Shown here: piece by piece, positions 3,442 to 19,495 of the stretch
How positions within the stretch are numbered: the stretch's first letter is position 1
How the letters are laid out: each line of letters opens with the position of its first letter
Source: an uncultured candidatus Porisulfidus sp.
GTDB taxonomy: Bacteria > Pseudomonadota > Gammaproteobacteria > Poriferisulfidales > Poriferisulfidaceae
Direction: 5' to 3'
Length of the DNA: 64,000 nt
Assembly (NCBI GenBank): GCA_958431155.1
Contig: OY288106.1
Span: 1,323,888 to 1,387,887, forward strand
Notes under the pieces: generated by a model
Seen by the model: only the letters and a program-made list of their open reading frames with translations
The model's database searches: none
Told to the model about the DNA's origin: nothing
Translations under genes and position numbers: made by a program

Positions 3442-4811
3442 GCTGGGCGCTGGCGCTGTTTGGGTTGGTCGTGCTGGCATTGATCGCCGGCTATCCGGTC
3501 GCATTCACGCTGGCCGGGGTCTCTCTGCTGGTCGCGGCAGTGGCCACGGCATCGGGGGTCTTTGATCCGGCCCTGCTGCTGACACTGCCGTCCAGAGTCT
3601 TCGGCATCATGAGCAACGACATACTCATCGCCGCCCCGCTGTTCATTTTCATGGGGGTGACCCTGCAGCGCTCGAAGGTCGCCGAAGACCTTCTGGACGC
3701 GATGAGCCGCATGTGCGGAACCTTGCCCGGCGGACTCGGCCTTTCGGTCATGGTGGTCGGCGTCCTGCTGGCGGCAAGTACCGGCATCGTCGGCGCAACC
3801 GTGGTAACGCTGGGTCTGCTGGCCCTGCCCAGCATGCTGCAGCGCGGCTACGACCCGCCGATCGCCTGCGGCGCCATTTGCGCGTCCGGCACCCTCGGGC
3901 AAATCATTCCACCCTCGATCGTCCTGGTGCTGCTGGGCGACGTAATGTCCTCCGCGTTCCAGAAAGCCCAATTGGAAATGGGTATTTTCTCTCCGCAGAC
4001 CGTTTCGGTCGCGGATTTGTTTGCAGGATCCATTTTCCCCGGGCTGATGCTGGTGGGACTGTACGTGAGCTACCTGCTGTTCACCGCCTGGCGTAGCCCT
4101 GAGCGTCTGCCTTCGAACCCGCCGGACTCCGAAGTGCCCGAACTTGCGACGCGGGAAGTGCTGGGGGCGCTGGTTGCCCCGCTCAGCTTGATCGTCACTG
4201 TGCTGGGAGCCATCCTGGGTGGATTTGCCACACCGACGGAGGCGGCCTCACTGGGCGCGGTCGGCAGTCTCCTGCTTGCGCGCCGCGAAGGGCCCGTGAC
4301 TCCGGACATGTTGCGCGCCATCACGCAAGACACCGCGCGCATCTCCAGCATGGTGTTCTTGGTGCTGATCGGGGCTTCCATCTTCTCGCTGGTGTTCCGC
4401 GGCTTCGGCGGCGACGATCTGGTGCACGAGTGGCTGGCAAACCTGCCCGGCGGCGTGATCGGGGCCGTGGTAGCGGTTATGCTGCTGATGTTCCTGCTCG
4501 GCTTCGTGCTGGACTTCATAGAGATTACCTACGTGGTAGTGCCTCTGGTCGGGCCCGTGTTGCTGATGATGGGACTGGATCCGATCTGGCTCGGTGTGAT
4601 GATCGCGATCAACCTGCAGACCTCGTTCCTGACCCCGCCGTTCGGTTTTGCCTTGTTTTATTTACGCGGCGTCGCCCCCGACACCGTAGCCACAGTGCAG
4701 ATCTACCGCGGGGTGGCGCCGTTCATCGCCCTGCAAGTGCTGATGCTGGCCATCCTCGCCCTATGGCCAGAACTGGCCACTTGGTTGCCACAAGCGATAT
4801 TTGGCTATTGA
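3438..4811 (+). CDS. dctM: TRAP transporter large permease subunit (DctM family)
   Basis: 457 aa, about 12-13 hydrophobic segments, the usual DctM size. Family signatures seen include the conserved GxxxxPS-type turn at GQIIPPSIVLVLLGD and the late segment with NLQTSFLTPPFGFALFYLRG, typical of the ion-coupled TRAP translocator. It starts in the ATGA overlap with dctQ. The protein catalyses ion-driven uptake of the substrate delivered by the DctP subunit; given the TakP-like binding protein nearby, 2-oxo acids or related carboxylates are a reasonable guess. It ends 16 bases from the convergent membrane-protein gene at 4828. Confidence 0.92.
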   Translation: MSWALALFGLVVLALIAGYPVAFTLAGVSLLVAAVATASGVFDPALLLTLPSRVFGIMSNDILIAAPLFIFMGVTLQRSKVAEDLLDAMSRMCGTLPGGLGLSVMVVGVLLAASTGIVGATVVTLGLLALPSMLQRGYDPPIACGAICASGTLGQIIPPSIVLVLLGDVMSSAFQKAQLEMGIFSPQTVSVADLFAGSIFPGLMLVGLYVSYLLFTAWRSPERLPSNPPDSEVPELATREVLGALVAPLSLIVTVLGAILGGFATPTEAASLGAVGSLLLARREGPVTPDMLRAITQDTARISSMVFLVLIGASIFSLVFRGFGGDDLVHEWLANLPGGVIGAVVAVMLLMFLLGFVLDFIEITYVVVPLVGPVLLMMGLDPIWLGVMIAINLQTSFLTPPFGFALFYLRGVAPDTVATVQIYRGVAPFIALQVLMLAILALWPELATWLPQAIFGY

Positions 4812-4827
4812 GAAAAGCTTTCTGAAA

Positions 4828-5403
4828 TCAGTACGGCGTTTCCAGAACCATCTGCATGGTCTGCAGGCCGGTAATCACCAGCGCGGCGTAAATCGTGCCG
4901 ACGCCCACGATGATTATGCGTTTCTTCCGGAGCATGTCCTCGCTAAGCACCGGACCAGCGATCATCCAGATCGCAGCGCCCAGATTGGCGCCAAAGAAGC
5001 CGTAATAGGTGGCGAGTTCATCGAATGCGGCCTGTTCGGCGAAGACTATGGAGGTGCCCCAAACGGCCAGAGCCGCCCCGATATAGGTTCCAATCCGGAT
5101 GAGAGTCCCGGAAATCATCCCGGTTGGCTGCAGCAACACCAGCAGGCCGTAAGCCGCGATCACCCACCACCAGATCAGGTTGCTGGCATGAGGTGCGTAT
5201 TCGGGATTCTTGAACATCGAAACAGCAACGATTGCATATGCGAATCCGATGAACATGATCGCTAAGCGGAAGATCCAGGGGTCGGTCCCGCGCATGCGTA
5301 CCATGGAAATGGCCATCCACAGCGCGGCTGCGAAATTGAGCAGGCACGCCACGTAGTAGAGAGCGAGAATCGGGAAGGTCGGATTCGCGAGAAATTGGTT
5401 CAT
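4828..5403 (-). CDS. Unknown integral membrane protein, about six TM segments
   Basis: 191 aa from the ATG at 5403 (a TTG 12 bases upstream is also in frame). Hydrophobic stretches at roughly residues 10-33, 40-62, 78-98, 105-126, 132-155 and 163-183 suggest six membrane helices with short loops, including a WWW cluster before the third helix. I do not recognise the family. It lies 38 bases downstream of the TRAP binding-protein gene on the same strand, so the two are probably cotranscribed, and it is convergent with dctM. A role as an accessory membrane component of this transporter is possible but only by position. Confidence 0.65.
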   Translation of the reverse strand: MNQFLANPTFPILALYYVACLLNFAAALWMAISMVRMRGTDPWIFRLAIMFIGFAYAIVAVSMFKNPEYAPHASNLIWWWVIAAYGLLVLLQPTGMISGTLIRIGTYIGAALAVWGTSIVFAEQAAFDELATYYGFFGANLGAAIWMIAGPVLSEDMLRKKRIIIVGVGTIYAALVITGLQTMQMVLETPY

Positions 5404-5441
5404 GCCGGATTCCAATCAGGGGCCCTGGTCGGCCCCGTATT

Positions 5442-6515
5442 CTACACCACTCGTGTGTCCAGATACGCTTGCTCGGAGATGGCCGTCCAGTCCCGCACTC
5501 GTGCATAGAACGCCTGGTAACTGTCGTAGACCTGCCGGGCAAAAGCGTCGGTTTCAGCCACTTCCGCGATCACTGCCTCGGCATGTCCCCGCAACGCGCT
5601 TAATACTTCCGAAGGGAATTGCCGAAGTTCCACTTCGTATTTTTCGACCAGCACTTTCAGCGCATCGTTGTTGTGTGCAGTGTAGTCGGCCATCATGTCT
5701 TCGTTGGTGGCCCGAGCGGCATTTTGCACGATGGCTTGAAGATCCTTCGGCAATGCTTCGAACGCCGGACGATGAACCAGGCACTCCAACGTGGTTCCGG
5801 GTTCGTGCCAGCCGGGATAGTAGTAGTACTTCGCCGCGCGGTGCAGGCCGAACGCCAGATCGTTCCACGGGCCGACCCATTCAGTCGCGTCGATCGCCCC
5901 GGTCTGCAGCGATACCAGCAATTCCTTTCCGCTGAGGTTTACCGGGGTGCCGCCGATCCGGCGCAATACCTCGCCGCCCAACCCCGGAATACGCATGCGC
6001 AGGCCTTGGAGATCCTCGATCCCGTTAATTTCGTGTTTGAACCAACCGCCCATCTGAACCATGGTGTTCCCTGCGGCCAGTGGGACGATGCCAAACGGAG
6101 CGTACGCCTCCTCCCACAACTCCATGCCACCTCCCTTGAGCAACCAGCCGTTCATCTCGTTGGCCGTCATGCCGAACGGCATGGTAGAGAAAAACTGGAA
6201 CGCCGGATTTTTGCCTTTCCAGTAGTAGGCTGCGCCATGGCCCATCTGCGCCGCGCCCTGGCTGACCGCATCGAACACTTCGAACGCCGGTACCAGTTCG
6301 CCTGCACCATACACCCGCACTTGCAAGCGCCCGCCGGACATCTCGCCGATCGATTCCGCCAGAAATTCCGCGCCGGTGCCAAGCCCAGGAAAATTCTTCG
6401 GCCAGGTGGTCACCATTTTCCAGCGCAGAGGCTCGTCGGCACTCGCCTGCCGGGCCAGTCCGAGGCCAGCCGTAGCGGCGGCGGCGCCTGCCCCCAGGAA
6501 TTCTCGTCGTTTCAT
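5442..6515 (-). CDS. dctP: TRAP transporter substrate-binding protein, TakP-like (DctP family)
   Basis: 357 aa. The start at 6515 is chosen because it is preceded by GAGGAGG at good spacing and gives an N-terminus MKRREFLGAGAAAATAGLGL, a twin-arginine-style or Sec signal peptide. The mature part has the DctP fold signatures: WKMVTTWPKNFPGLGTGAE near the start, GHGAAYYWKGK around residue 90, and MRIPGLGGEVLRRIGG with the substrate-contacting Arg region around residue 160. The wording is closest to TakP, the 2-oxo-acid binder described in Rhodobacter; other members bind lactate or amino-acid-derived acids, so the ligand is inferred. It should work with DctQ/DctM at 2926-4811, although it is transcribed towards them. 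Confidence 0.9.
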   Translation of the reverse strand: MKRREFLGAGAAAATAGLGLARQASADEPLRWKMVTTWPKNFPGLGTGAEFLAESIGEMSGGRLQVRVYGAGELVPAFEVFDAVSQGAAQMGHGAAYYWKGKNPAFQFFSTMPFGMTANEMNGWLLKGGGMELWEEAYAPFGIVPLAAGNTMVQMGGWFKHEINGIEDLQGLRMRIPGLGGEVLRRIGGTPVNLSGKELLVSLQTGAIDATEWVGPWNDLAFGLHRAAKYYYYPGWHEPGTTLECLVHRPAFEALPKDLQAIVQNAARATNEDMMADYTAHNNDALKVLVEKYEVELRQFPSEVLSALRGHAEAVIAEVAETDAFARQVYDSYQAFYARVRDWTAISEQAYLDTRVV

Positions 6516-6546
6516 TGCAGCCCTCCTCGAGCGCAGAATCCGCCGT

Positions 6547-8736
6547 TCATCGGCATTCCAGCTTTGCGTAGTCGTACATAAACCACTTGACGCCCGCGTC
6601 CATATCATCAAAGCGGACCTGAACGCGTAACTGTGGCGGCCGGCCCTCGTATTCTACGATGATCCCGGAGCCGAATTTCGGATGTACCACCGCTGTGCCC
6701 GGGCCCGGCACGTCCAAGTCGGCCGCAGGGACCGGACGGGCAGCCCCGGCCCCGTACCTTGCCAAAAACGCAGAAGCGGGCGGGATGAAATCTTTCGGCA
6801 CCTCGGTCTCGGTGTATTCGTCCGGCAATTCATGCAGGAAACGCGACGGGACCAGGCCCGAGGACATGCGCCCGAAGATCAACCGCTCGTAGGCATGCGT
6901 TAGAACCAACTGCTGCCGGGCACGTGTCATGCCGACGTAGCACAGCCGGCGCTCCTCTTCGAGCGGCGAATCCTCCCGCGTCATCGGCAAAACACCGTCC
7001 TCCAGCCCAACGATGAACACCACGGGAAACTCCAAGCCCTTGGCCATGTGCAGGGTCATCAATTGGACCGCGTCCCCGGATGCCCCTTCACCCCGCTCGC
7101 CGGCCTGCAACGCGGTACTGTCAAGAAAAGCCTCGGTCAGGCCGGGACCATCGTCTTCGTCAGGCTCCCAGGCATCCTCGAACGCCGCGGCCGAATTCAC
7201 CAGTTCCCCCAAGTTCTCGCTGCGCACCTCCTCCAGTTCCCGGTCGTTCTCCTGGTACATTGCCAGTAATCCGGACTTGTCCAGGATGCGTCGGAGAGCC
7301 TCGGCCAACCCGCACCCCTGGGTTTCCTCGCGCAAGGCCGCCATGCATTCCTCGAATTCTGCCAGTGCGCGGCCCGCACGTGAGGTGGGCTGGCTCTTGA
7401 CCTGCTCCTGCGCCACTGCAAACAATGATCCATCGGCGGCAGAAGCAGCGGTGCGGACCGCCTCGACTGTCCCCGCGCCGATGCCCCGGGGAGGAACGTT
7501 GCACACCCGCTGCCAGGCGACATCGTCGTTCGGATTCAGGCACAGCCGCAGATACGCCAAGGTGTCCTTCACTTCACGTCGCTCAAAGAATCGGATTCCC
7601 CCGTACACCCGGTAGGGAATTTGCCGGTTGTTCAGGTTTGTCTCGAAAGGCTGCGACTGCCGGTTCGTTCGGTAGAGCACGGCGCATTCGTCCCATCGCC
7701 CCCCCGCCCTCACCCATTGTTCAATCTTTCCAACGACATAGGTCGCTTCCGCCCCACCGGTCGGCGCGCTGAACACGGTGATCGGATCCCTTTCGGGTCG
7801 GTCGGTCCACAACCGCTTCTGTAAGCGGTCGTCGTTGTTCCCGATCAATGCATTGGCCGCTTCCAGCACCGGGGTGATGGAGCGATAGTTCTGCTCCAGC
7901 GGCCAGACCTGGACATTCTTGTGGTTCTTCTGGAAGTCGAGGATATGCCTCGGACGCGCCCCCCGCCAACCGTAGATTGACTGGTCGTCATCGCCGACCA
8001 CGAACAGCGGGCGTTCATCGCCCGCCAACAACTTCAGCCAGGCATTCTGCAGGTCGTCCACATCCTGGAATTCATCCACCAACAGATGGCGGAACCGCAA
8101 CTGATAGTGTTGTTGCACAGCGGAATGATCGCGCAGCAACTCGACGCATCGCAACAGCAATTCGTCGAAATCCACCAAGCCACTCTGGTCGCAGCGTCTC
8201 TCGTACCGCTCCATCACCTGAAGGCGGACCTCTTCCCGTTTGTTTTCAGGTTCGATGTGGCGAGCACGCAGGCCTTCCCCTTTTTTCAGACTGATCCAGC
8301 GGGCAGCGTCGGCAACATCGCGTGCCTTGCGCGGCTGGTCAAGGTCCCGCAGGATCTGGCGGATCAAGGTTTTCTGGTCTTCGCGGTCCAGAATCTGGAA
8401 GTTTCCGGGCAGTCCGGCCTCCTCGTGGAAGCGCAGCAGCATCCGGCGGGCCAGTGCATGAAAGGTTCCGACCCACAGGCCGCCCGCAGGTTGCCCCCGC
8501 AGCCGCTCGATGCGTCCCCGCATCTCGGCCGCCGCCTTGTTCGTGAACGTAACCGTCAGGATTTCCTTTGGCTGGATGTCCTGTGTCTTCACCAGCCAAG
8601 CGAAACGGTGGGTTAGCACCCGGGTCTTGCCGGAGCCGGCACCTGCCAGCACCAAAGTGCAATGGTCCGGATCCGATGTAACTGCGTTGCGTTGCGCCTC
8701 GTTCAGGACATCCAGGACCGGATCCGCCGGGGTCAT
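6547..8736 (-). CDS. uvrD: DNA helicase II, UvrD
   Basis: 729 aa (E. coli UvrD 720). Superfamily 1A 3'-5' helicase: Walker A AGAGSGKT near residue 30, the DEFQDVD Walker B region, [13 protein letters not shown], a QNYRS motif, and [16 protein letters not shown] of motif V. The C-terminal [16 protein letters not shown] is the Tudor-like module found in UvrD/PcrA. It acts in nucleotide excision repair, mismatch repair and clearing of RecA or RNA polymerase. The frame runs upstream into ubiB, but the ATG at 8736 forms a 4-base ATGA overlap with ubiB and gives the family-normal N-terminus. Last gene of the ubiJ-ubiB-uvrD unit. Confidence 0.95.
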
Positions 8737-10277
8737 CCGGCCCCCCCGTGCAGGAATGCCAGCCCACCCCCCAGCGCCAATGCCACGATGATGACCACTG
8801 CCAACCAGACACGAATACGCTTGAGTTTGCGCCGGGAGGCCGCTAATTCCGTGCGAAGTGCCGGAGAGGGATCCGGCGGTGAAGCGACAGCGGAATCTCC
8901 GAGAAAACTCTCGATCAACTGCGGCAGGCGGTGGCGTGCAAGCCGGATCAACGCAGGCAGCCCGGTCTGTGCGCTGACCCAACGGTCCATGAAGGGTTTG
9001 GCGGTGGCCCACAGGTCGAGGTCCGGGTACAGTTCGCGGCCGACGCCTTCGATGTTGACCAGGGTTTTCTGCAACAGTACCAGCTGCGGCTGCACTTCCA
9101 TCTGGAACCGGCTTGCAGTCTGAAACAGCCGCATCAACAGGTTCGCGAACGAGATTTCGGAGAACGGCCGCTGGAAAATCGGCTCGCACACGGTGCGGAT
9201 GGCCGCTTCGAACTCCTCCACCCGGGTACCGGACGGAACCCAGCCGGATTCCACGTGCAGTTCCGCCACCCGCCGGTAGTCATGGTTGAAGAAGGCCGCG
9301 AGATTGAACGCCAGATAGCGCTGATCGAAAGCCGACAGCGACCCCATGATGCCGAAATCCACCGCACTGTACTTCGGCGACTCCGGGGTCTCCCGGGAAA
9401 TGAAGATATTGCCGGGGTGCATGTCGGCGTGGAAGAAGTTGTGGTCGAACACCTGGGTGAAGAAGATCTCCACGCCTCGCTCAGCCAGGCATTTCAGGTC
9501 GACCCCGTGGCGCAGCAGCTCCTCGCGGTCCGAGATCTGGATCCCGTACACGCGCTCCATGGTCATGACGTTCCTTGAAGTGTAGTCCCAGTACACCTCC
9601 GGCACGTACAACAACTTGCTGTGTTCGAAGTTGCGCCGCAGCTGGCTTGCATTGGCAGCCTCACGCGTCAAATCCAGTTCGTCGAAGATGATGCCCTCGT
9701 ATTCGGCCACCAGGTCGACCGGATGCAGACGGCGGGACCCCGCCCAGTAGCGCTCGACAAACCGGGCCAGCATATACATCAGCCGGATGTCGCGGCGAAT
9801 CGTCTTCTCGATTTCAGGGCGCAGCACCTTGACGATAACGTCGATGTCGCCCAAGCGTGCCGCATGCACCTGGGCCACCGAAGCAGAAGCAAGTGGCGTG
9901 GTGTCGAACTGGCTGAACATTTCCTGAACCGTTCTCCCCAGCGACTGTTCGATGGTCCTGCGGGCCGCCTTGCCATCGAAGGGAGGCACCCGGTCCTGAA
10001 GGCGGGCCAGTTCATCGGCCAGATCGGCGGGCAACAGGTCGCGCCGGGTCGACAGCATCTGCCCAAACTTGACGAAGATGGGTCCCAAGTCCTCCAACGC
10101 GCGCCGGATACGCTCCGCCTGCGGCTGGCGCGACCGACGGAGCCAGTGCCAGGGTAGCAAACAAAGCAGCCCGCGGCCCAACCGAAATCGGGACAGGGCG
10201 ATTTCGTCGAGACCGTGGCGCAACAGCACCCACGGGATGTAGAGCGGTCGCGCGATGACGCGCGCCTGCCAGTTCAT
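8733..10277 (-). CDS. ubiB: Ubiquinone biosynthesis accessory kinase-like protein UbiB
   Basis: 514 aa (E. coli 546). An atypical protein-kinase-like ATPase of the ADCK/ABC1 family needed for aerobic ubiquinone biosynthesis. The family KxGQ motif is at [13 protein letters not shown], the AAAS-type loop at [12 protein letters not shown], the HADMHPGN catalytic-loop equivalent and the DFGIMG metal-binding motif are all visible. A hydrophobic C-terminal helix (about residues 487-508) anchors it to the inner membrane. ATGA overlaps tie it to ubiJ upstream and uvrD downstream. In many relatives ubiE directly precedes ubiJ-ubiB; here ubiE lies about 9 kb away beyond the inserted cluster. Confidence 0.95.
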
Positions 10278-10834
10278 GGCCGGATGCGGTCGAGCCGCAG
10301 CTCAAACCGCTCCAAGTCGTCGCGGAGCCGGTCCACCTCGCGCACGAAGCGATCCAGTTCGGAAGCGCGCGGCAGCAACCCCGACTCCTCATGCAGATAA
10401 TCCCGGGTGTTGCTCTCGGCCGTGGCGCCGAAATTCCGGGCCACCTGTCGAGATTCCTCGAACGTCCGCATCATCAATCGAGCCGGCACATCGCCGACGG
10501 CGCGGGACAGCAGTTCCTCCCAGTCGATGTCCAGGGTGGTTAGAAAGTCCCGGAGATCCTGCGCGATTTCACCCTCGCCTTCCAGATGGATGCTGTCAGC
10601 CCGACCATTGAGCACATACCGGACAAAGGCTGCCAAATGCCCGCGAACCGCGAGATCCGACCGTTCTTCCGGAGGCTCCACGATCAACTGCCCATCGTCT
10701 ATGCGCAGCCCGATAGCAGGCAACGGGAAAAGTTCCAGCCGGATCGTGCATCGCCCCATCGCCTGAAGACGCTTCTGCGCTTCTGCGTCGGTGCGCAGAG
10801 CCTGATCGATAAGGGCGGAAAGCGAGGCAAACAT
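10274..10834 (-). CDS. ubiJ: Ubiquinone biosynthesis accessory factor UbiJ (SCP2 domain)
   Basis: 186 aa (E. coli UbiJ about 200). An SCP2-type lipid-binding domain fills the first 110 residues ([19 protein letters not shown] then [11 protein letters not shown]), followed by a Glu/Arg-rich helical tail ending ELRLDRIRP, as in UbiJ. With UbiK, UbiJ organises the soluble ubiquinone-synthesis complex and binds isoprenoid intermediates. The 4-base overlap with ubiB supports the assignment. It is divergent from the unknown cluster; a TATAAT lies at 10875-10880 on its strand, about 40 bases before the start. Confidence 0.9.
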
Positions 10835-10906: not shown

Positions 10907-11752
10907 ATGCCCAAAACCATGTCAACGTACGCGCGGCTGCTTTCGCTGGGGCTACTAGCATCGCTCTGCGGTGCCAGTTACGCGACGGAATCGCCATTTT
11001 CTATCGGCTCGGATCCCACGTTGCAAATCGCCCTGCGACTGATCTCGGATGAGACCCGGCAGGAGCAGGCATCGACCGACGATGCCAAGGTGGAAGATTC
11101 TTCCGCTTCCGTACCCTCTGTTGAAGATTCCGAGGAACAAGGCTCGGAATCCGCAGAACAAGCCGAGGGAGATACCCCATCCACGCAAGCCTCTGACATA
11201 CCGTCTTCCGAGGAGGGACTTCCTGAAGATCTTGGCCTCTCGGACCAAGAAGAAGGCCGGGAACCTGCGGAACGGGGGACGGCCGGTAGAACCGAGGATT
11301 CCGGTCTCGAAGATGAACTCGAAAGAGATCCGGAGCTTGCCGGGCAGGGCAGTCTGGAAGAAGAGCGAGAGAGGAATCTTGCCCGCGCCGAGGCGATACT
11401 GAACCGCGTCGACCAGATCCTGCTGGACGCACGCGCCCGGGCCCGCCAGAAACGGGAGGGACGGGACGACGGGGACGGGACGGTCGGATCGATACCGGAT
11501 GAAGATTCGCCGGCGCGGGAAACACAAGGCGATGCCGAAGGGGAAGCTGGGGAGAAGGACACCGGACCCGGCAGAGCCGCCGAAGGGCGGATCCCAGGCA
11601 ACGTCCCGACCGGCAAGACCCGACCTTCCCACGGCTATGACCGGGACGAGGACATCGTGACGCGGCAGGTCTGCGAACTGGCGGAACGGGAAGAAGATCC
11701 TGAAGTCCGGAAGCACCTGGAAGAGAAATGCAGAAGCCTGAAAGACGGGTAG
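10907..11752 (+). CDS. Cluster gene 1: highly acidic exported protein
   Basis: 281 aa from ATG 10907 (277 from ATG 10919). Residues 1-26 form a signal peptide (LLSLGLLASLCGASYA before TES). The mature protein is strikingly rich in Glu, Asp, Ser and Gly with almost no hydrophobic core for about 200 residues, so this part is probably disordered; a short helix-forming LARAEAILNRVDQILLDARA sits in the middle. The last 35 residues are different, with two Cys (VCELAEREEDPEV then EEKCRSLK) that could form a disulphide-stabilised helical hairpin. No recognised family. First of nine overlapping plus-strand genes; its end overlaps the lipoprotein gene by 25 bases. Confidence 0.7.
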   Translation: MPKTMSTYARLLSLGLLASLCGASYATESPFSIGSDPTLQIALRLISDETRQEQASTDDAKVEDSSASVPSVEDSEEQGSESAEQAEGDTPSTQASDIPSSEEGLPEDLGLSDQEEGREPAERGTAGRTEDSGLEDELERDPELAGQGSLEEERERNLARAEAILNRVDQILLDARARARQKREGRDDGDGTVGSIPDEDSPARETQGDAEGEAGEKDTGPGRAAEGRIPGNVPTGKTRPSHGYDRDEDIVTRQVCELAEREEDPEVRKHLEEKCRSLKDG

Positions 11753-12906
11753 CCCTGATCGCGCTGCTGCTGGTCTTGGCCAGCGGATGCCAGCTCGGTG
11801 GCGGCTACGGAGCCCTGCTCGGCGACCGGCCGGAAGAGCCAGCCGGCGAGCCAGTATCGGAAGAGTGGTACCTGGATGCCGGCATCATCCAGTTCGAGGG
11901 GAAAGTCGACGAGGAGCAGGTGGCCGAAGGGGAAGTGTTCCGCCAAGTGCGGAAAGCCGAAACCCTGTATTTCCCCCAGCAGTTGCGACAGGCGATGCTG
12001 CGCGGCGGCGGCTGGCGGCACGTGTGGGTGGTGCCGGAGGGCGCGGCCCCGGATCTGCGCATCGAGGGCGCAATCCTGGAGTCCAACGGTTCCGAGCTGG
12101 AACTGGAAATACGCGCCTACGACGCGACCGGTGCGAAATGGGTCGACCGCGTCTACCAGCATGAATTCAGCGAGACCGATTACGCCGGCGAAGACAGGGC
12201 ACGGCCGATGGATACCCTGTTCGACCGGATTGCGAAGGACCTCCTGATCGAACGCGACCGGAAGGGAGTGGCGGCCATGAAGGAAATCCGCGCCGTAGCG
12301 GAATTGCGGTTCGCGGGGGAATTCGCGCCGCAGGCGTTTGAGCGCCATATGAAGGCGCACGATGGCCGCGTCCGGCTGGTTTCGCTGCCCGCCAAGGAAG
12401 ACACGCTGTACCAGTTGGTGCTGCAGATCAAGGAGCGCGACGACCTGTTCATCGAAACCCTGCAGGAATACTCGGAGGGCTTCGCGGAAACGCTCGATGC
12501 ACCGTATCGGGACTGGGCACGGCAGAGCTTCTACGAACGTCGCGCGCACGACGAGAATGTCTCGACCAGCGTGGCACAGGGACTGTTGAGTGCACTGGCC
12601 ATCATCGGAGGGGTCGTCATCGCAGCCGATTCCGGATCCACCCCGGAAGCACGGCAACTCGGGCAGGTGCTGGTCGGAGCCGGAGCCTACGGCGCCTATG
12701 ATGCCTATCAGGACTACGAGGCGACGGAGATCCATGAGGCCGCGCTCAAGGAACTTGGTCAATCGCTCGATCTGGAAGTAGAGCCCCAGGTCGTACAGGT
12801 GGAGAACCAGACGCGCACGCTTACCGGGTCGGTTGAAGACCAGTACCAACAGTGGCACGAAATCCTGAACGAAATCTACTTGTCGGAACGTGGCGGCCTG
12901 AACTGA
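11728..12906 (+). CDS. Cluster gene 2: unknown lipoprotein
   Basis: 392 aa. The N-terminus MQKPERRVALIALLLVLASGC is a lipoprotein signal with lipobox LASGC (lipidated Cys21). There is no Asp after the Cys, so outer-membrane sorting is expected. The mature domain is mixed alpha/beta with a hydrophobic stretch around residues 285-303 (SALAIIGGVVIAADSG) followed by a glycine/alanine/tyrosine-rich segment that may insert in or lie on a membrane. I do not recognise the family; a distant resemblance in shape to periplasmic NlpC-free lipoproteins with internal hydrophobic hairpins is all that can be said. Embedded in the operon, overlapping genes 1 and 3. Confidence 0.75.
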   Translation: MQKPERRVALIALLLVLASGCQLGGGYGALLGDRPEEPAGEPVSEEWYLDAGIIQFEGKVDEEQVAEGEVFRQVRKAETLYFPQQLRQAMLRGGGWRHVWVVPEGAAPDLRIEGAILESNGSELELEIRAYDATGAKWVDRVYQHEFSETDYAGEDRARPMDTLFDRIAKDLLIERDRKGVAAMKEIRAVAELRFAGEFAPQAFERHMKAHDGRVRLVSLPAKEDTLYQLVLQIKERDDLFIETLQEYSEGFAETLDAPYRDWARQSFYERRAHDENVSTSVAQGLLSALAIIGGVVIAADSGSTPEARQLGQVLVGAGAYGAYDAYQDYEATEIHEAALKELGQSLDLEVEPQVVQVENQTRTLTGSVEDQYQQWHEILNEIYLSERGGLN

Positions 12907-13631
12907 TCCCGGTTGCGCTGGCGCTGGCGGCAGGATTGGCCGCAGGAACCGCCGCAGCCGAGGACATCCAAGAGAAGGCGCTGCTTGCGATTCTCGATGC
13001 CGATTGGACCCGGGCCGCGGGATTGTGGGCGCAGGTAGACGGGCAACGGGCCCGCGACTACCTGCAACAGGCGCGGGCGGAGCTCCAGTTCCAGCAAACC
13101 CAGCCTTTGTTAAACGAGGCCTTCGCAGCACAGCAGCGAGAGGATTGGGCGGCGGCGGACACTGCCTATCTCAAGGCGCTGGCCGTCTCCCCGTATCTGA
13201 AGGCGGCACACCAAGGCCGCAAGCAGGTCGAACTGTACATCGAAGCGCACCGGCGGCTGGACGCGCTGAAACTGCCGGACGGCCTGTACGACAAGGTCAT
13301 ACGGGCACGGGCAAAAGAGTGGCTTGCCTACGTCCGGGAAAAGAAACTCAATGACCGGAAAATTGCCAAGGCGCGTACGGATCTTGCCGCCGCCCTCAAG
13401 CTGGCACAGGTTCCGGTTTCCCTGGTCCTGACTTCGGACAACCAGTCCGATATCGAAATCTATGGTGTCGGAAAGCTCGGCCGGCTTGAGCGCCAGACCA
13501 TGCAATTGGTGCCCGGCGACTACATCGTCGTCGCCAGCCGGCCTGGATACCGGGATGCACGCGCGACGTTGAAAGTGCGGCCCGGCAAGCCCGTCGCCCT
13601 TGACATCCGGTGCACGGAGTCGATCCAGTGA
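12852..13631 (+). CDS. Cluster gene 3: exported TPR-like protein with C-terminal PEGA-like domain
   Basis: 259 aa from GTG 12852, which overlaps gene 2 by 55 bases; a CTG at 12903 would give the 4-base CTGA overlap typical of this operon but is a rare start codon. Either way a signal peptide follows (LIPVALALAAGLAAGTAAA). Residues about 37-170 are helical and repeat-like (RDYLQQARAELQF, EDWAAADTAYLKALAVSPY), consistent with TPR-like packing. The last 80 residues form a beta module with LVPGDYIVVASRPGYRD and a closing valine strand, matching the PEGA pattern seen in the next protein. Probably a periplasmic scaffold that contacts gene 4's product; inference from architecture only. Confidence 0.75.
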   Translation: MARNPERNLLVGTWRPELIPVALALAAGLAAGTAAAEDIQEKALLAILDADWTRAAGLWAQVDGQRARDYLQQARAELQFQQTQPLLNEAFAAQQREDWAAADTAYLKALAVSPYLKAAHQGRKQVELYIEAHRRLDALKLPDGLYDKVIRARAKEWLAYVREKKLNDRKIAKARTDLAAALKLAQVPVSLVLTSDNQSDIEIYGVGKLGRLERQTMQLVPGDYIVVASRPGYRDARATLKVRPGKPVALDIRCTESIQ

Positions 13632-15445
13632 TTCTTGACCACGAGCCGGTCCAGGCCCGATCCTACCAGCCTCCCAAGCGGAAGAGACGCCGGGATCGCT
13701 CGTCGCCACCACGTTTTCGGGGGGCGTGGCTGGTGGTTTTTCTCCTGGTGCTGTTGACGGCCGGTGCCTGGTACGTGACGGAACAAGTACAGTTCATCGA
13801 CTTCGAGACCGACCCGGTCGAGGCCTCGGTGCGCCTCGAGAGCCCGCACACGATGGTGGGCGGACAGGTTTTGCTCTGGCGGGGCCGGCACATCGCGAAC
13901 GTGACGGCGGAGGGCTATCACCCCCGGCAGGTGGAATTCGAGGCGGGCAGAGATGCGCCTCGCACCGTGCCAGTGACCCTGGACCCTCTTCCGGGCAAAC
14001 TCCGGGTCTCTACGACACCCGAAGCCGAGGGAGAAGTCCGGGTGGACGGCGAACGTGCCGGAGGGATCGGCGAAACACTGGAAGACCTCTCTCCGGGTCG
14101 TCATGTCGTGCAGGTAGGCGCGGAAGGTTTCGAGATGCACCGGCAGACGGTGGAAATCGAGGGGTACGGGCGACTGACCGAAATCGAGATCTCACTCCAG
14201 AAAATTGTAACGCCCGCCTTGCTTGCAGTTTCCAGTACGCCTGAGGCCGCAGACATATTGATCGATGGCGCCTGGCGGGGCCGCACCCCGAAACAGGTCG
14301 CGCTGACCCCGGACACCGAGGTAGAGGTCGCCTTGCTGCTCCCCGGCCATGCCCCGAACCGCCAAACCTTGAAACTGAAATCCGGCCGGCAAAGCCACGT
14401 AGCAACTTTGATCTCTCGCACCGGCGTCCTTGAACTGTGGCCGACCCCGGCCAATGCGACGATTCGCGTTGACGGGCAGGTGGAACTCCGCCGCCAGTTG
14501 CGGCTGCCGCAGCAAGCACACACCATCGAAGTCTCCGCGCCGGGCTACGTACCGAAGAAGTATGTCGTCGTGCCGCATCCCGATGCGCCAAAGCAACTTT
14601 TCGCCGTCCTGCAATCGCAGGCGAAGGTCGAATATTCCCGGCGCCAGAAGCACGAGCGGGATCTCGGCTTGGCCTTCATCGAGTTCCAGCCTCGCGGGTC
14701 GTTCGAGATCACGACCACTCGCCGCCGTATCCCGGTGCGCCTGACGCGGCCGTTCTCGATCATGGACAGGGAAGTCACCAATGCCCTGTACCAACGCTAT
14801 CAGGCCGGGCATGATTCCGGAAAGGTCTTCGGCAAGCGCCTGGATCGGCCAAGCCAACCGGTCGTGCGGATCAGTTGGGCGGATGCGGCGCTCTTTGCGA
14901 ACTGGATGAGCGAACAGGCGGGCGTCTCGCCGTTCTACCGGGTGCGCGACGGACGGATCGAGGGATTCGACGCGAACGCGACCGGGTACCGTCTGCCAAG
15001 CGAGGCCGAGTGGGTCTGGCTGACTCGCTCCGAGAAGCGATACGCCTGGGGGGACTTCATGCCGCCTCCGGATCGCTTCGGCAATCTGGCGGACGCTTCT
15101 GCCGCCGACATCGTGCAGCCTGTGCTGGAGGAATACAACGATGGGCATGCCGTCAGTGCCGATGTCGGGAGTTTTCCGCCCTCAGCCCAAGGGTTGTATG
15201 ATTTGCCGGGCAACGTGGCGGAATGGATGCACGACGTGTTTCTCGACAAACTGCGGATTTCGGCCCGCCCGGAGCCGGAGCGCGTCAACCCGCTGGGTGA
15301 AGCCAGCGGCCGATACTATGTCATCCGGGGGTTCGGCTGGCGCGACAGCGGGCGCAAGGAGTTGAGCCTGAGCAACCGCCGCTACGACCGGCATCCCAGG
15401 GACGATGTGGGATTCCGGCTGGCCTACTACCTGGATTCACCATGA
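13628..15445 (+). CDS. Cluster gene 4: membrane-anchored PEGA-repeat protein with cysteine-free FGE/SUMF1 domain
   Basis: 605 aa from GTG 13628, chosen for the GTGA overlap with gene 3 and GGAG at 13616-13619; a GTG at 13610 is also in frame. A basic cytoplasmic tail (PPKRKRRRDR) precedes one membrane helix (about residues 33-50), so the bulk is periplasmic. Four PEGA-like beta modules follow (about 55-340; e.g. LSPGRHVVQVGAEGFEMH and AHTIEVSAPGYVPKKY). Residues about 344-602 are a formylglycine-generating-enzyme/SUMF1 fold: MDREVTNALYQRY, GYRLPSEAEWVWLTR, YDLPGNVAEWMHD and DDVGFRLAY. True FGE uses two cysteines; here I find no Cys in the whole protein, so oxidase activity is excluded and a structural or binding role is likely. 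Confidence 0.9.
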   Translation: MILDHEPVQARSYQPPKRKRRRDRSSPPRFRGAWLVVFLLVLLTAGAWYVTEQVQFIDFETDPVEASVRLESPHTMVGGQVLLWRGRHIANVTAEGYHPRQVEFEAGRDAPRTVPVTLDPLPGKLRVSTTPEAEGEVRVDGERAGGIGETLEDLSPGRHVVQVGAEGFEMHRQTVEIEGYGRLTEIEISLQKIVTPALLAVSSTPEAADILIDGAWRGRTPKQVALTPDTEVEVALLLPGHAPNRQTLKLKSGRQSHVATLISRTGVLELWPTPANATIRVDGQVELRRQLRLPQQAHTIEVSAPGYVPKKYVVVPHPDAPKQLFAVLQSQAKVEYSRRQKHERDLGLAFIEFQPRGSFEITTTRRRIPVRLTRPFSIMDREVTNALYQRYQAGHDSGKVFGKRLDRPSQPVVRISWADAALFANWMSEQAGVSPFYRVRDGRIEGFDANATGYRLPSEAEWVWLTRSEKRYAWGDFMPPPDRFGNLADASAADIVQPVLEEYNDGHAVSADVGSFPPSAQGLYDLPGNVAEWMHDVFLDKLRISARPEPERVNPLGEASGRYYVIRGFGWRDSGRKELSLSNRRYDRHPRDDVGFRLAYYLDSP

Positions 15446-15666
15446 GGTGGCTCTGGCCAATGCCCCTTTGCGCGGCAGCAACCTTGGCATGGGCCGAAGA
15501 GCCCCCCGTGCCACAGGCAGGAGAAGAGGAGGAGGGCCGACAGGTTATCGAGATCCTGACCGAAGAGGACCTCAAGCAGGAAACCCCATCGATCACGCTC
15601 AAGCAGCTGACCCCGAAGGAAACCATTTCCCTCGACGAAGCCGTGGACATGCCCAGTGATATCTAG
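15442..15666 (+). CDS. Cluster gene 5: small acidic exported protein
   Basis: 74 aa. A signal peptide (residues 1-18, MRWLWPMPLCAAATLAWA) leaves a mature peptide of about 56 residues dominated by Glu, Gln and Thr, with a run of five acidic residues near its start and repeated short motifs (ILTEEDLKQET, LTPKETISLDEA). It has no membrane helix and no recognised domain. ATGA overlap with the PEGA/FGE gene and 11-base overlap with the channel gene tie it firmly to the operon, which is the main reason to believe such a small gene. Possibly a linker peptide between periplasmic partners. Confidence 0.65.
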   Translation: MRWLWPMPLCAAATLAWAEEPPVPQAGEEEEGRQVIEILTEEDLKQETPSITLKQLTPKETISLDEAVDMPSDI

Positions 15667-16537
15667 GTTGACGAATCTGGCCGGACACTGGCGCGAACAC
15701 GAGGTGTTCTGGCAATTGCTGGCGTTGGCATTGTCATTCGTGCTGGTGCATGCGGCATATGAACTGGTGGTGCGGCCGGCCGCCTACGAGGAACTGCAAC
15801 GCCAAGCTGTCGCCGAGGAGCAGGCCGAGATAGCGCCGCCGACCCTCGGGGCGCGAGTTGCCGTGGTCGTCAAGGACTACGAGCAGGAGGCCTGTTTTGT
15901 CGCCCTGTTCTGGGCGCTCGCCATCATGTGGATGAAACTGCTGAAACTGCGCTTCGCGCGCAGGCTGTTAAGCCTGCGCGGCCGGCATGGCGAGGAAAGC
16001 TTCCTGGAAACCCGGGAAACCGACCTGGTCCTGCCTCAGGCGCAGGATCGGGCGCGCTTCACCGACGTACGCGAACATGCGCGAATGCAGGGCTACGGCG
16101 GCACCGTGCTGTATCGGGCCGCCGATACCTGCCTGGACCGTTTCTTCACCACGCATTCCGTGTCGGATGCCACCGCGGCCATGAAGGCCAGTTGCGAAAT
16201 GGAGTCGGATCGGCAAGACACCGAACTGGCGTTGGTGCGCTACCTGACCTGGGCCATCCCGTCGCTCGGATTCATCGGGACGGTACGCGGGATCGGCGCG
16301 GCCCTGGGACAGGCCGAGGAAGCCACGCGCGGCAACATCGGGCCAGTGACGGAAAGCCTCGGGGTGGCGTTCAACTCGACTTTCGTGGCCCTGTTGATCA
16401 GCCTGTTCATCATGCTGCTGCTGCATAAACTGCAGGAAGCCCAAGAGTCGTTGGTGCTGGATGCCCAGGAGCATTGCCAGCACCACTTGCTGCGTTACCT
16501 GCGGGAGCGGACGCGGACGGATGACCCAGCTGCTTAG
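15656..16537 (+). CDS. Cluster gene 6: MotA/TolQ/ExbB-type proton-channel subunit
   Basis: 293 aa from GTG 15656. Four hydrophobic segments (about 17-40, 78-97, 193-215, 232-258) with a cytoplasmic region between the second and third, the MotA/TolQ topology. The diagnostic channel motif is SLGFIGTVRGIGAALGQA at about 201-218, followed by LGVAFNSTFVALLISLF in the last helix. Members form pentamers around two B subunits (MotB, ExbD, TolR) and convert proton or sodium flow into movement. No MotB/TolR gene of the usual kind is present; the two VWA proteins downstream carry a matching Asp-containing helix and are the likely partners. Confidence 0.85.
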   Translation: MISRLTNLAGHWREHEVFWQLLALALSFVLVHAAYELVVRPAAYEELQRQAVAEEQAEIAPPTLGARVAVVVKDYEQEACFVALFWALAIMWMKLLKLRFARRLLSLRGRHGEESFLETRETDLVLPQAQDRARFTDVREHARMQGYGGTVLYRAADTCLDRFFTTHSVSDATAAMKASCEMESDRQDTELALVRYLTWAIPSLGFIGTVRGIGAALGQAEEATRGNIGPVTESLGVAFNSTFVALLISLFIMLLLHKLQEAQESLVLDAQEHCQHHLLRYLRERTRTDDPAA

Positions 16538-17426
16538 GATCGACAGCTACGCGCTGACACAACCCGACGGCGCCGAATGGCAGACCGAGTGGTGCATCGC
16601 CCGCCATGACGCGAAGGCCGGCTGGCGATTCGGGGAAAAAGCGGGCGAACTGCTGCAACCAAAGCGCACCGATAGCGAAAACAACGAATATCTCGAAGCG
16701 CCAGAGTCAGAAGAAGGCCGGAGTCCGTCATGCACCGATCTGGCGTATTTTCAGCTGCAGGGATTCCTGTCGGAAGGAGAGGGGCCGATCGACCTTTCGG
16801 TGAGCGGAGGGATCGGGCAACCGCGGCTCGAATCGCTGCTGGGCGTATTGGAAGCCCTGGGCTACACGCTCCGCGGCGTGTTCCCGACCGCGCTGTTGGC
16901 GACCCGGGATCTCCCGCCTGGGCGTTACGGAATCATAGAACTAGGGCGCAGCCGAAGTTGGATCAGCACCATCGACGTCCAGCCGGGACGGGCACGGCTG
17001 GAATCGGTCCGGGAATACGGGGATTTCGGATTCTACCACCTGTTCACCCAGTGGATGGAGAACGTGGCGGAGGCGTTCGCGACCCAGCACCGCTTCGACA
17101 TACACCGCAATCTCGCGGCAAACCGCGAACAATTGTTCGGTCAGATGCGCCGGGCCTTTGCCGAAAAGCCGGAACAGATACAGTTCAGCCTTGACTCCCG
17201 GCTCGTGACGCTGGACGAAACAATCTTCCGGGCCCGCTGGCCGAAACCCGCTCTCGACACGGAGGGACTGGAACTCCTGCTGCTGCCCCCGCTGGCACTG
17301 CCGCTGCCAGAGCAAGGGCTGGGCCTGCCCTGCTGCAGCAATCCCGCACCCCAAACCTACCCCGACTTGGCTGCCACGCTCCCGGAAGACGGGCAGGCCC
17401 GCCGCTGCACGGCTCTTTCTTTTTGA
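16521..17426 (+). CDS. Cluster gene 7: unknown cytoplasmic protein, possibly degenerate actin/Hsp70 fold
   Basis: 301 aa from ATG 16521, which has a GGACGG just upstream and overlaps the channel gene by 17 bases. No signal peptide or membrane helix. The middle part (about residues 85-215) reads like the second half of an actin/Hsp70-type ATPase: a Leu-rich helix (RLESLLGVLEALGYTLRGVF), then a 'phosphate-2'-like strand pair (GRYGIIELGRSRSWISTIDV) lacking the usual DxGxxT residues, then REYGDFGFYHLFTQWMENVA, like the GG-D-F-D helix of Hsp70. ATP binding is therefore doubtful. Position beside a channel subunit suggests a cytoplasmic regulator or assembly platform. The fold call is my inference. 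Confidence 0.65.
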   Translation: MTQLLRIDSYALTQPDGAEWQTEWCIARHDAKAGWRFGEKAGELLQPKRTDSENNEYLEAPESEEGRSPSCTDLAYFQLQGFLSEGEGPIDLSVSGGIGQPRLESLLGVLEALGYTLRGVFPTALLATRDLPPGRYGIIELGRSRSWISTIDVQPGRARLESVREYGDFGFYHLFTQWMENVAEAFATQHRFDIHRNLAANREQLFGQMRRAFAEKPEQIQFSLDSRLVTLDETIFRARWPKPALDTEGLELLLLPPLALPLPEQGLGLPCCSNPAPQTYPDLAATLPEDGQARRCTALSF

Positions 17427-18470
17427 ATGTCCAGGCGTCGACGCAACCGTTTTCTGAATCCGTTCGGCTTGGCCTTTCTGGACGTCATGTCCTGCGGGTT
17501 GGGAGCCGCGGTGCTGCTGTTTTTGATCATCGACCATAACCTGACCGAGCTGGCGCAGGCATCGGAAAGCGGCGAAGGAGACCTGCAACTGCTGGAACAG
17601 TCCATCCAGGAACAGGAAGAACTGATCGCCGGCCATCAGCGCCAGGTGCGGCAGTTGAGACGCGAACTGCAAAGCCTGGCACAACAGCGCGTGGCCGCCA
17701 TGACCACTCAGGCCGAACTCCGCGCCCGTCAACCGCAGGCGTCCGACACGATTCGGCTGGAAAAGGAATTGCGCGAGCGGAAGCAGAAGCTTCAGGAGGC
17801 AAAGAAAAGCAAGCAGTTGAGGGCAACGGAAGGAGAAGGCCAGCGTCAGTACGTGGCCGGCTTTCGGGTCGAGGGACGCCGCATCCTGATCTTGCTGGAT
17901 CGCTCGGCCAGCATGCAGGATGAGCGCATCGCCTCGATCATCCGCAACAAGTTTCTTCCGATCAAGTACCAGATCGAGAGCTATAAATGGCGTTGGGCGC
18001 GCTCCATCTTCGAGTGGATCCTCGCGCACATGCCAAAGCAGACACAGTATCAAGTCTGGGGTTTCAGCACCACAGCAACGCCTGCGCTACCGAAACGCGG
18101 GTGGCTGCAGGCGGAAGACGAGAAGCGGATGGAAGAGGTGATCGCGGCGGTACAGGGCTGGGTTCCCTCGGGAGGCACTCGCCTGGATACGGCCCTCGCG
18201 AAGGTCGCCCAGATGAAACCCAGGCCGGATGCGGTTTATCTGATCACGGACGGCCTCCCGACACAAGGGAAATCCTGGTTCAAGAAAAACCGGGTCAGCC
18301 CCACCCAGCGCATGGAGTTTTTCCAGGCGGCGACGGAAGGAATCGCCAGCCCACCGTTCAATATCGTTCTGCTGCCGCTTGAGGGCGACCCGGCGGCGGC
18401 CGGGGCCTACTGGGGATTCGCCATGCAGACCGACGGGCAGTTTCTGGCCCCTGCGGAGGACTGGCCGTGA
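17427..18470 (+). CDS. Cluster gene 8: membrane-anchored coiled-coil VWA protein
   Basis: 347 aa; starts on the base after gene 7's stop. A basic tail (SRRRRNRF) precedes a helix whose start reads FLDVMSCGLGAAVLLFLII (about residues 17-35), similar in placement of Asp to the MotB/ExbD/TolR helix. Residues about 45-135 are a long Gln/Glu/Arg coiled coil. A von Willebrand factor A domain fills about 150-345 with a complete metal-ion-dependent adhesion site: DRSAS, the Thr in GGTRLDTAL and the Asp in YLITDGLPTQG. The VWA domain should lie in the periplasm. Proposed as one of two B-type stator subunits. Overlaps gene 9 by GTGA. Confidence 0.85.
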   Translation: MSRRRRNRFLNPFGLAFLDVMSCGLGAAVLLFLIIDHNLTELAQASESGEGDLQLLEQSIQEQEELIAGHQRQVRQLRRELQSLAQQRVAAMTTQAELRARQPQASDTIRLEKELRERKQKLQEAKKSKQLRATEGEGQRQYVAGFRVEGRRILILLDRSASMQDERIASIIRNKFLPIKYQIESYKWRWARSIFEWILAHMPKQTQYQVWGFSTTATPALPKRGWLQAEDEKRMEEVIAAVQGWVPSGGTRLDTALAKVAQMKPRPDAVYLITDGLPTQGKSWFKKNRVSPTQRMEFFQAATEGIASPPFNIVLLPLEGDPAAAGAYWGFAMQTDGQFLAPAEDWP

Positions 18471-19495
18471 GGCGCCCCCGCCGACCCGCCGACAACCGCC
18501 TGTCGTTTCTCGACGTGATCAGTTGCGGGTTCGGAGCCATGGTGCTGCTGATCCTGATCACCAAGAACACCGTGGGCGAGCCGATCGAGGACCTGCAGGC
18601 ACAGATCGAGACGCTGCAGGAGCAACTCGCGCGCGTGATGCAGGTTCAAGCCGGCCTGGCTTCCGAGCGCCTCAAAGAGCAGGCCCGGGTACGCACCCAG
18701 AGGGAAAAACTTCAGGAAGACCGGAAGGCCGTGGAGGAAGCGCAACAGGCGAACGCCAGTGCCAAGGCGCAAGCTTTGATCGAAGCGAATCTAAAAACCG
18801 CGCTGCAAAGCCTCAACGAAGAAATGCGGCGGCTGAACCTGACTGCGTCCGAACCGGACGTGATCGGCGGAATCCCGGCCGACAGCGAATACATCATTTT
18901 CATCGTGGACACGTCCGGCAGCATGAAGCGATTCGCTTGGGGAGCCGCCAAACAGCAACTGGTGGCCCTGCTGGACGCCTACCCGAAAGTGCGCGGGCTC
19001 CAGGTCATGAACGACATGGGTTCGTACATGTTCAGCGGCTACCGGGGACGCTGGATTCCGGACACGCCTGCACGAAGGAAGGTCCTCCTGCAGCGTTTCG
19101 ATTCTTGGCACTCCTACAGCAACTCAAGTCCGGTCGAGGGAATTCTTGAGGCCATCAAGCGCTTCCGCATGAAGTCCGACAAGATCAGCCTGTACATCTT
19201 TGGCGACGAGTACACCGGCGAATCGGTTCAAGAGGTCATCGACACGGTGGACGACCTCAACCACCAAGACGGCAAACGGCAGGTCCGTATTCACGCAGTC
19301 GGGTTCTTCACCCGGACGCAGATCGAGAAGATCGATCCCAAATACGCCGACACGACCAGCCGCTTCGCGGGATTGATGCGGGAACTGACGCGGCGAAACG
19401 GCGGAACTTTCCTAGGGGTTACGGTGGAGGAATCCCCGAAGAGAAGCGCCAAGCATGGACAACCAAAGTTTTTCATCCCCCGAACCGGTGGGTAA
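18467..19495 (+). CDS. Cluster gene 9: second membrane-anchored coiled-coil VWA protein
   Basis: 342 aa from GTG 18467 in a GTGA overlap. Same plan as gene 8: basic tail, helix FLDVISCGFGAMVLLILIT (about residues 14-32), coiled coil of Gln/Glu/Lys heptads to about residue 130, then a VWA domain (about 138-320). The adhesion site has DTSGS and the Asp of LYIFGDEYTG, but the middle Thr element is replaced by a Ser-rich NSSPVEGIL, so metal binding may differ from gene 8. The two proteins are similar only at the N-terminal helix and overall architecture, suggesting a heteromeric pair rather than a recent duplication. Last gene of the cluster, convergent with ubiE. Confidence 0.85.
   Translation: MRRPRRPADNRLSFLDVISCGFGAMVLLILITKNTVGEPIEDLQAQIETLQEQLARVMQVQAGLASERLKEQARVRTQREKLQEDRKAVEEAQQANASAKAQALIEANLKTALQSLNEEMRRLNLTASEPDVIGGIPADSEYIIFIVDTSGSMKRFAWGAAKQQLVALLDAYPKVRGLQVMNDMGSYMFSGYRGRWIPDTPARRKVLLQRFDSWHSYSNSSPVEGILEAIKRFRMKSDKISLYIFGDEYTGESVQEVIDTVDDLNHQDGKRQVRIHAVGFFTRTQIEKIDPKYADTTSRFAGLMRELTRRNGGTFLGVTVEESPKRSAKHGQPKFFIPRTGG

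Follow-up and report, generated by a model that had tools for sequence, protein, structure and literature searches.

Genes 8 and 9 of the operon described here probably encode two non-identical B (axle) subunits of a proton-driven motor of the 5:2 type, the ring of which would be formed by the product of gene 6. The operon lies within the window (the whole 64,000 nt stretch of DNA that was analysed), which is carried by a gammaproteobacterial genome of 1.59 Mb. Genes 3–9 are all transcribed from the plus strand, and neighbouring genes mostly overlap or abut (Table 1). Gene 9 starts with GTG, which overlaps the stop codon of gene 8 (GTGA), and this overlap suggests that translation of the two genes is coupled. 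Upstream, the ORF of gene 2 was called from nt 10586 (its likely start is nt 10907) and extends into gene 3. Because of this overlap, and because low-complexity or secreted upstream ORFs are also found in two other loci (L036, L038), gene 2 is possibly a further member of the operon.

Table 1. Positions and assignments of the operon genes and of the two Asp-bearing helices within the window.
Feature	Position (nt)	Strand	Assignment
Gene 2	10907–11752	+	Secreted, very acidic, low-complexity protein with signal peptide; possible operon member
Gene 3	11728–12906	+	Predicted outer-membrane lipoprotein; LASGC lipobox, glycine-rich hydrophobic stretch
Gene 4	12852–13631	+	Secreted periplasmic protein, weakly TPR- and PEGA-like
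Gene 5	13610–15445	+	Anchored in the inner membrane by a helix; PEGA domains; FGE/SUMF1-like domain at the C-terminus
Gene 6	15656–16537	+	MotA/TolQ/ExbB-type channel subunit (Pfam match, conservation)
Gene 7	16521–17426	+	Shortened member of a family with a fold like that of the Hsp70 nucleotide-binding domain (alignment, model of a relative)
Gene 8	17427–18470	+	First candidate B subunit, with Asp-bearing helix, coiled linker and VWA domain
Gene 8 transmembrane helix (residues 13–35)	17463–17531	+	Asp19 codon at 17481–17483
Gene 9	18467–19495	+	Second candidate B subunit, with Asp-bearing helix, coiled linker and VWA-like domain
Gene 9 transmembrane helix (residues 10–33)	18494–18565	+	Asp16 codon at 18512–18514

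The N-terminus of gene 8 reads MSRRRRNRFLNPFGLAFLDVMSCGLGAAVLLFLIID and that of gene 9 reads V/MRRPRRPADNRLSFLDVISCGFGAMVLLILITK (GTG start). Both have an Arg-rich basic tail followed by the motif FLDV(M/I)SCG(L/F)GA and a hydrophobic run, and the Asp stands third in the hydrophobic segment (residues 17–35 in gene 8, 14–32 in gene 9). An earlier note on this DNA had described such an Asp-bearing helix, directly after a basic tail, as common to the two proteins, and the sequences were found in just that place; the range named there (nt 17427–18575) takes in gene 8 and only the helix of gene 9, which ends at nt 19495. When genes 8 and 9 of the same locus are compared, identity is 38–76% in the helix (mean 59%) but 14–22% outside it (mean 18%), in agreement with the further statement that the remainder of the two proteins differs. 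Despite this divergence, both remainders belong to the same kind of protein, consisting of a coiled linker and a VWA domain. Profile comparison of the gene 8 and gene 9 N-termini gave a probability of 99.6% over 37 columns.

Related loci were sought by scanning one genome per species with two patterns, one of which was the helix peptide, while gene 8 played no part in the scan. At least 458 loci with a gene 9 relative were recovered, and the best 80 were kept. Conservation of the Asp across homologues had been proposed as a check on the shared helix, and in these approximately 80 loci, from Gammaproteobacteria, Desulfobacterota and Acidobacteriota, the residue is invariant (82 of 82 gene 8 and 84 of 84 gene 9 sequences), as are the Cys four residues past it and nearby Gly positions; the helix match is not a product of chance. 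Since 27 of 83 gene 9 relatives were found without a match to the helix peptide used in the scan, their Asp was not selected for by it, and all 27 retain the residue.

Among the best 80 of at least 458 loci, the gene order 3-4-5-6-(7)-8-9 is constant save at contig ends, across Gammaproteobacteria, Desulfobacterota, Acidobacteriota and delta-type MAGs. In every locus not truncated by the end of its contig, genes 8 and 9 stand next to each other, beside one MotA/TolQ/ExbB gene. A similar picture was obtained from 185 genomes drawn evenly from the class: a full gene 9 was present in 10, with gene 8 directly adjacent in 10 of 10, and gene 8 was seen without gene 9 in two genomes, both times on a contig cut at the locus (4.1 and 4.6 kb). 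In a tree of 64 proteins, the gene 8 and gene 9 sequences are split by a single branch (100/100), and many subgroups are represented on both sides of it in a broadly matching manner, which indicates that the pair is old and has been inherited together.

The VWA domain of gene 8 scores above the Pfam cut-off and displays the MIDAS residues D158-S160-S162. That of gene 9 is more divergent and lies below the cut-off, with D148, S150, S152 and D247 invariant. In the predicted monomer model of gene 8, where confidence is low around the Asp itself, one helix (residues 13–47) is followed by coil to residue 129 and then by the VWA domain; a Foldseek search with this model matched solved VWA domains, BatB among them, and the head is predicted to have a VWA fold. 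The helix Asp and the first MIDAS Asp are separated by 134–156 residues in gene 8 and by 132–145 in gene 9. The lengths of the two linkers show a raw rank correlation of 0.78, and contrasts corrected on the gene 6 tree (74 loci) gave r = 0.69 (permutation p = 0.0002) and a rank correlation of 0.26 (p = 0.03), the co-variation being dominated by a few large contrasts. Control length pairs showed no consistent effect over both measures (74 loci). Co-varying linker lengths fit two shafts standing side by side, and a shared partner or docking height could produce the same pattern.

To our knowledge, the two axle (B) subunits are identical in the solved 5:2 motors, and it may be asked whether gene 6 instead builds two kinds of ring, one with a gene 8 homodimer and one with a gene 9 homodimer, so that one ring protein would serve two motors with two outputs. 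A single VWA protein of G108 (locus L158, nt 4122–8750), which has the helix SALDLFASAMGAF, is consistent with such an arrangement, as this helix type, with its own MotA-like protein, can work without a second paralogue; the helix itself therefore does not require two different B subunits. Nevertheless, every complete locus has genes 8 and 9 as a pair, apparently with coupled translation, their linker lengths co-vary, and loci with a single paralogue were not found except at contig ends, so that the existence of two separate motors appears doubtful. As read from the alignments, the constant pairing and the co-varying linkers favour a mixed pair over two homodimer rings, and a candidate mixed axle with one gene 8 and one gene 9 copy per ring (5:1:1) is plausible.

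The 8/9 pair of the window family is a state distinct from that of the single-B relatives. The VWA protein of L158 is surrounded by a MotA_ExbB protein, an FHA protein, a PP2C phosphatase and a trypsin-FHA protein, and in G051 (L159, nt 3564–8175) a similar single helix protein is found beside a Ser/Thr kinase, a PP2C-like ORF and a protease-like ORF. These two clusters possibly represent a homomeric, phospho-regulated cousin of the motor considered here.

Two different B subunits of this type have already been predicted in print. According to Williams-Jones et al. (Mol Biol Evol 2025; PMC12204202), vWA proteins co-occur with tolQ homologues in the absence of tolR and exbD, and the TolQ-linked vWA proteins (TPH-vWA / TolQ) are mostly heterologous pairs with a TolR/ExbD-like pore helix and a conserved Asp (their Fig. 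4c–d), the Asp pair being placed inside the Thr ring of the pentamer by AlphaFold3 models. Going by this published description, the window shares with the TPH-vWA / TolQ family a TolQ-like gene beside a heterologous pair of membrane-anchored vWA proteins, with no local tolR or exbD, as well as a conserved Asp in an N-terminal helix common to both vWA proteins. The family occurs in Proteobacteria, and the query organism of that study, Idiomarina loihiensis, is a member of the Alteromonadales, like Bowmanella (L059, L071), which has the operon of the window. Besides Bowmanella, culturable bacteria carrying the operon include Microbulbifer and Halieaceae. The novelty of the two-B-subunit idea is thus limited and, with the core prediction published, so is the surprise. 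What is added here is the fixed operon, the bias-checked invariance of the Asp, the ancient pairing, the co-variation of the linkers and the Hsp70-like gene 7. The passages of the 2025 paper that were consulted do not speak of an operon with the lipoprotein, the periplasmic protein and the PEGA/FGE-like protein, of the Hsp70-like gene 7, or of a relative with one B subunit among PP2C and FHA genes. A 2026 review cites the paper and does not mention vWA, and no bench experiment on any member of the family was found in the literature.

The 2025 paper also reports another, first vWA family whose binding is TonB-like, at the side of the ring, which lends some credit to the notion that just one of the two proteins forms a homodimer axle here, while the other binds the ring from outside in the manner of TonB or TolA and uses its Asp otherwise. 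As there described, however, the side-binding family has an SHLS motif and a His, whereas genes 8 and 9 both carry FLD-C-G-x-G-A with an invariant Asp, and resemble each other far more closely in the helix than elsewhere. An axle made by one protein only is accordingly judged decidedly unlikely.

The MotB/ExbD-like character suggested for the two proteins in the earlier note was borne out in one respect, in that the Asp is invariant in both families, but not in another, as sequence homology to ExbD, TolR or MotB was not detectable. Neither gene matched the Pfam family ExbD (PF02472), and profile comparison of their helices with ExbD/TolR (10 ExbD sequences recovered by pattern) was no better than that of control helices. 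The OmpA-like peptidoglycan-binding domain of MotB-type proteins likewise had no Pfam match in gene 8 or 9, and a PDB sequence search with genes 6, 8 and 9 returned no relative having a solved structure.

Gene 6, on the other side of the proposed complex, matches PF01618 (MotA_ExbB; 7e-12, 45.6 bits, curated cut-off 22.9), and its residues T209 (FIGTV) and T242 (FNST), which by their sequence motifs we take to correspond to the pore Thr of ExbB/TolQ, are invariant in 74 of 74 relatives. The genome contains six MotA_ExbB and three ExbD matches. Each of the three ExbD genes adjoins another ExbB and none is near gene 6, which leaves genes 8 and 9 as the only local candidate B subunits, and conservation and genomic context together make the putative B-subunit role of the two proteins well supported. 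That the shared helix is just an assembly or anchoring motif with no proton path, the B subunit of gene 6 being encoded elsewhere, would accord with the lack of ExbD homology in genes 8 and 9, but is very improbable given that the three ExbD genes each adjoin an ExbB of their own and that gene 6 keeps both pore-motif Thr and accompanies genes 8 and 9 in every complete locus.

The remaining ExbB of the genome (725778) has no ExbD and adjoins a 352-aa coiled protein with the helix FTDIMMVVVIVFL, in which an Asp is again located at the helix start. This pair (L128, nt 5534–7507; G000:C1, about nt 724533–726506), the coiled member of which has an internal repeat, shows weak similarity to ZorA/ZorB (E 0.0035 and 5e-5). 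At G000:C1 331844–333205, two adjacent MotA_ExbB domains occur next to a single ExbD. Divergent ExbD genes often occur as tandem pairs in this class (G033:C5, G026:C7, G041:C47, G044:C1 and others), so that adjacent B genes which differ from each other are no rarity.

An older case of two B-type genes is AglRQS of Myxococcus xanthus, where, as here, one MotA/TolQ-type gene is accompanied by two different B-type genes. Proton conductance and motility are reportedly lost when AglQ carries the D28N change (PMC3858216), and it was stated to be unknown whether the dimers made by AglQ and AglS are mixed or homomeric (PMC9389320). AglQ and AglS match Pfam ExbD (PMC3169522) and are of the ExbD type, unlike genes 8 and 9, which carry VWA domains instead. 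The likeness to ExbBD and TolQR lies in a ring protein of the MotA_ExbB family and a single N-terminal helix with the Asp of F-(L/I)-D-V at its cytoplasmic end; the window differs in its VWA heads, in having no PF02472 match and in that no TonB- or TolA-like gene was recognised in the locus. A third comparison is with GldKLMN and type 9 secretion, in which an FGE/SUMF1-like envelope protein is also encoded beside a proton-driven motor, but no GldL, GldM or GldN was seen here and gene 5 is far under the GldK cut-off (66.9 bits against 350), and membership in that system was rejected. A defence role for genes 5–9 was also rejected, as no credible PADLOC match was obtained, the weak matches covering only the coiled linker of gene 9; with respect to Zorya, genes 6, 8 and 9 matched neither the ZorA nor the ZorB model.

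The three genes upstream of gene 6 are directed to the cell envelope by prediction. Gene 3 matched no Pfam family; relatives were present in 60 of the fetched loci, and the lipobox pattern was found in the window copy and in 46 of the 60. A few relatives of gene 4 possess an N-terminal Ser/Thr kinase domain, which the window copy is without; kinase features were observed at L036 11619–14048 (Pfam Ser/Thr kinase) and, as motifs, at L073 1592–3991 and L106 1130–3541. Gene 5 matches PF03781 (5e-31) and PF08308 (9e-18) but contains no Cys, on which ground it was rejected as an FGE enzyme. The C-terminal 150 aa are free of Cys in 60 of 70 relatives, and the FGE/SUMF1-like domain is probably not catalytic.

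There is room for a gene between genes 6 and 8 in 64 loci, while in eight the two are adjacent. Relatives of gene 7 align across about 430 residues, and the model of one of them (L043, nt 7603–8895; pLDDT 86) matches Hsp70 nucleotide-binding domains (E 4e-16). Some full-length relatives have a C-terminal FHA domain (L094, nt 7458–8882; L083; L099). The copy in the window is shortened, with a degenerate N-terminus, and has neither the strand motif of the N-terminus nor the domain at the C-terminus, so that nucleotide binding may have been lost. No mention of this Hsp70-like gene was found in the literature searched. Taken with the neighbours of the single-B relatives and the kinase features of gene 4, the FHA domains of gene 7 make phospho-signalling a recurring neighbour of these loci. 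A far-reaching version of the model, in which an obligate 5:1:1 motor would have two chemically similar proton sites and two different VWA heads, a single turn yielding two unequal outputs, under cytoplasmic control of an FHA-bearing, Hsp70-fold gene 7 and, in some relatives, of a gene 4 kinase, is unlikely when taken as a whole.

The mechanism we infer for the mixed gene 8/gene 9 axle is as follows. Each N-terminal helix would enter the gene 6 pentamer, one copy of each B subunit per ring, and the Asp at its cytoplasmic end would carry the proton. Beyond the membrane, the helices would continue as parallel, length-matched shafts holding two different periplasmic VWA heads. Proton flow would turn or re-orient the ring and the 8/9 axle relative to each other, and the heads may then pass force or a change of shape to the products of the upstream genes, i.e. 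gene 5, gene 4 and the lipoprotein of gene 3. Maintenance of the outer membrane and the handling of surface proteins or of polymers would be candidate cellular roles.

A widespread motor that keeps two different axle subunits would reveal if equality of its two proton sites is obligatory. It would also lend itself to a clean genetic test, as either Asp can be changed independently of the other. As the operon is conserved over several phyla and no known phenotype was found for it, it may represent an undescribed energised machine of the cell envelope.
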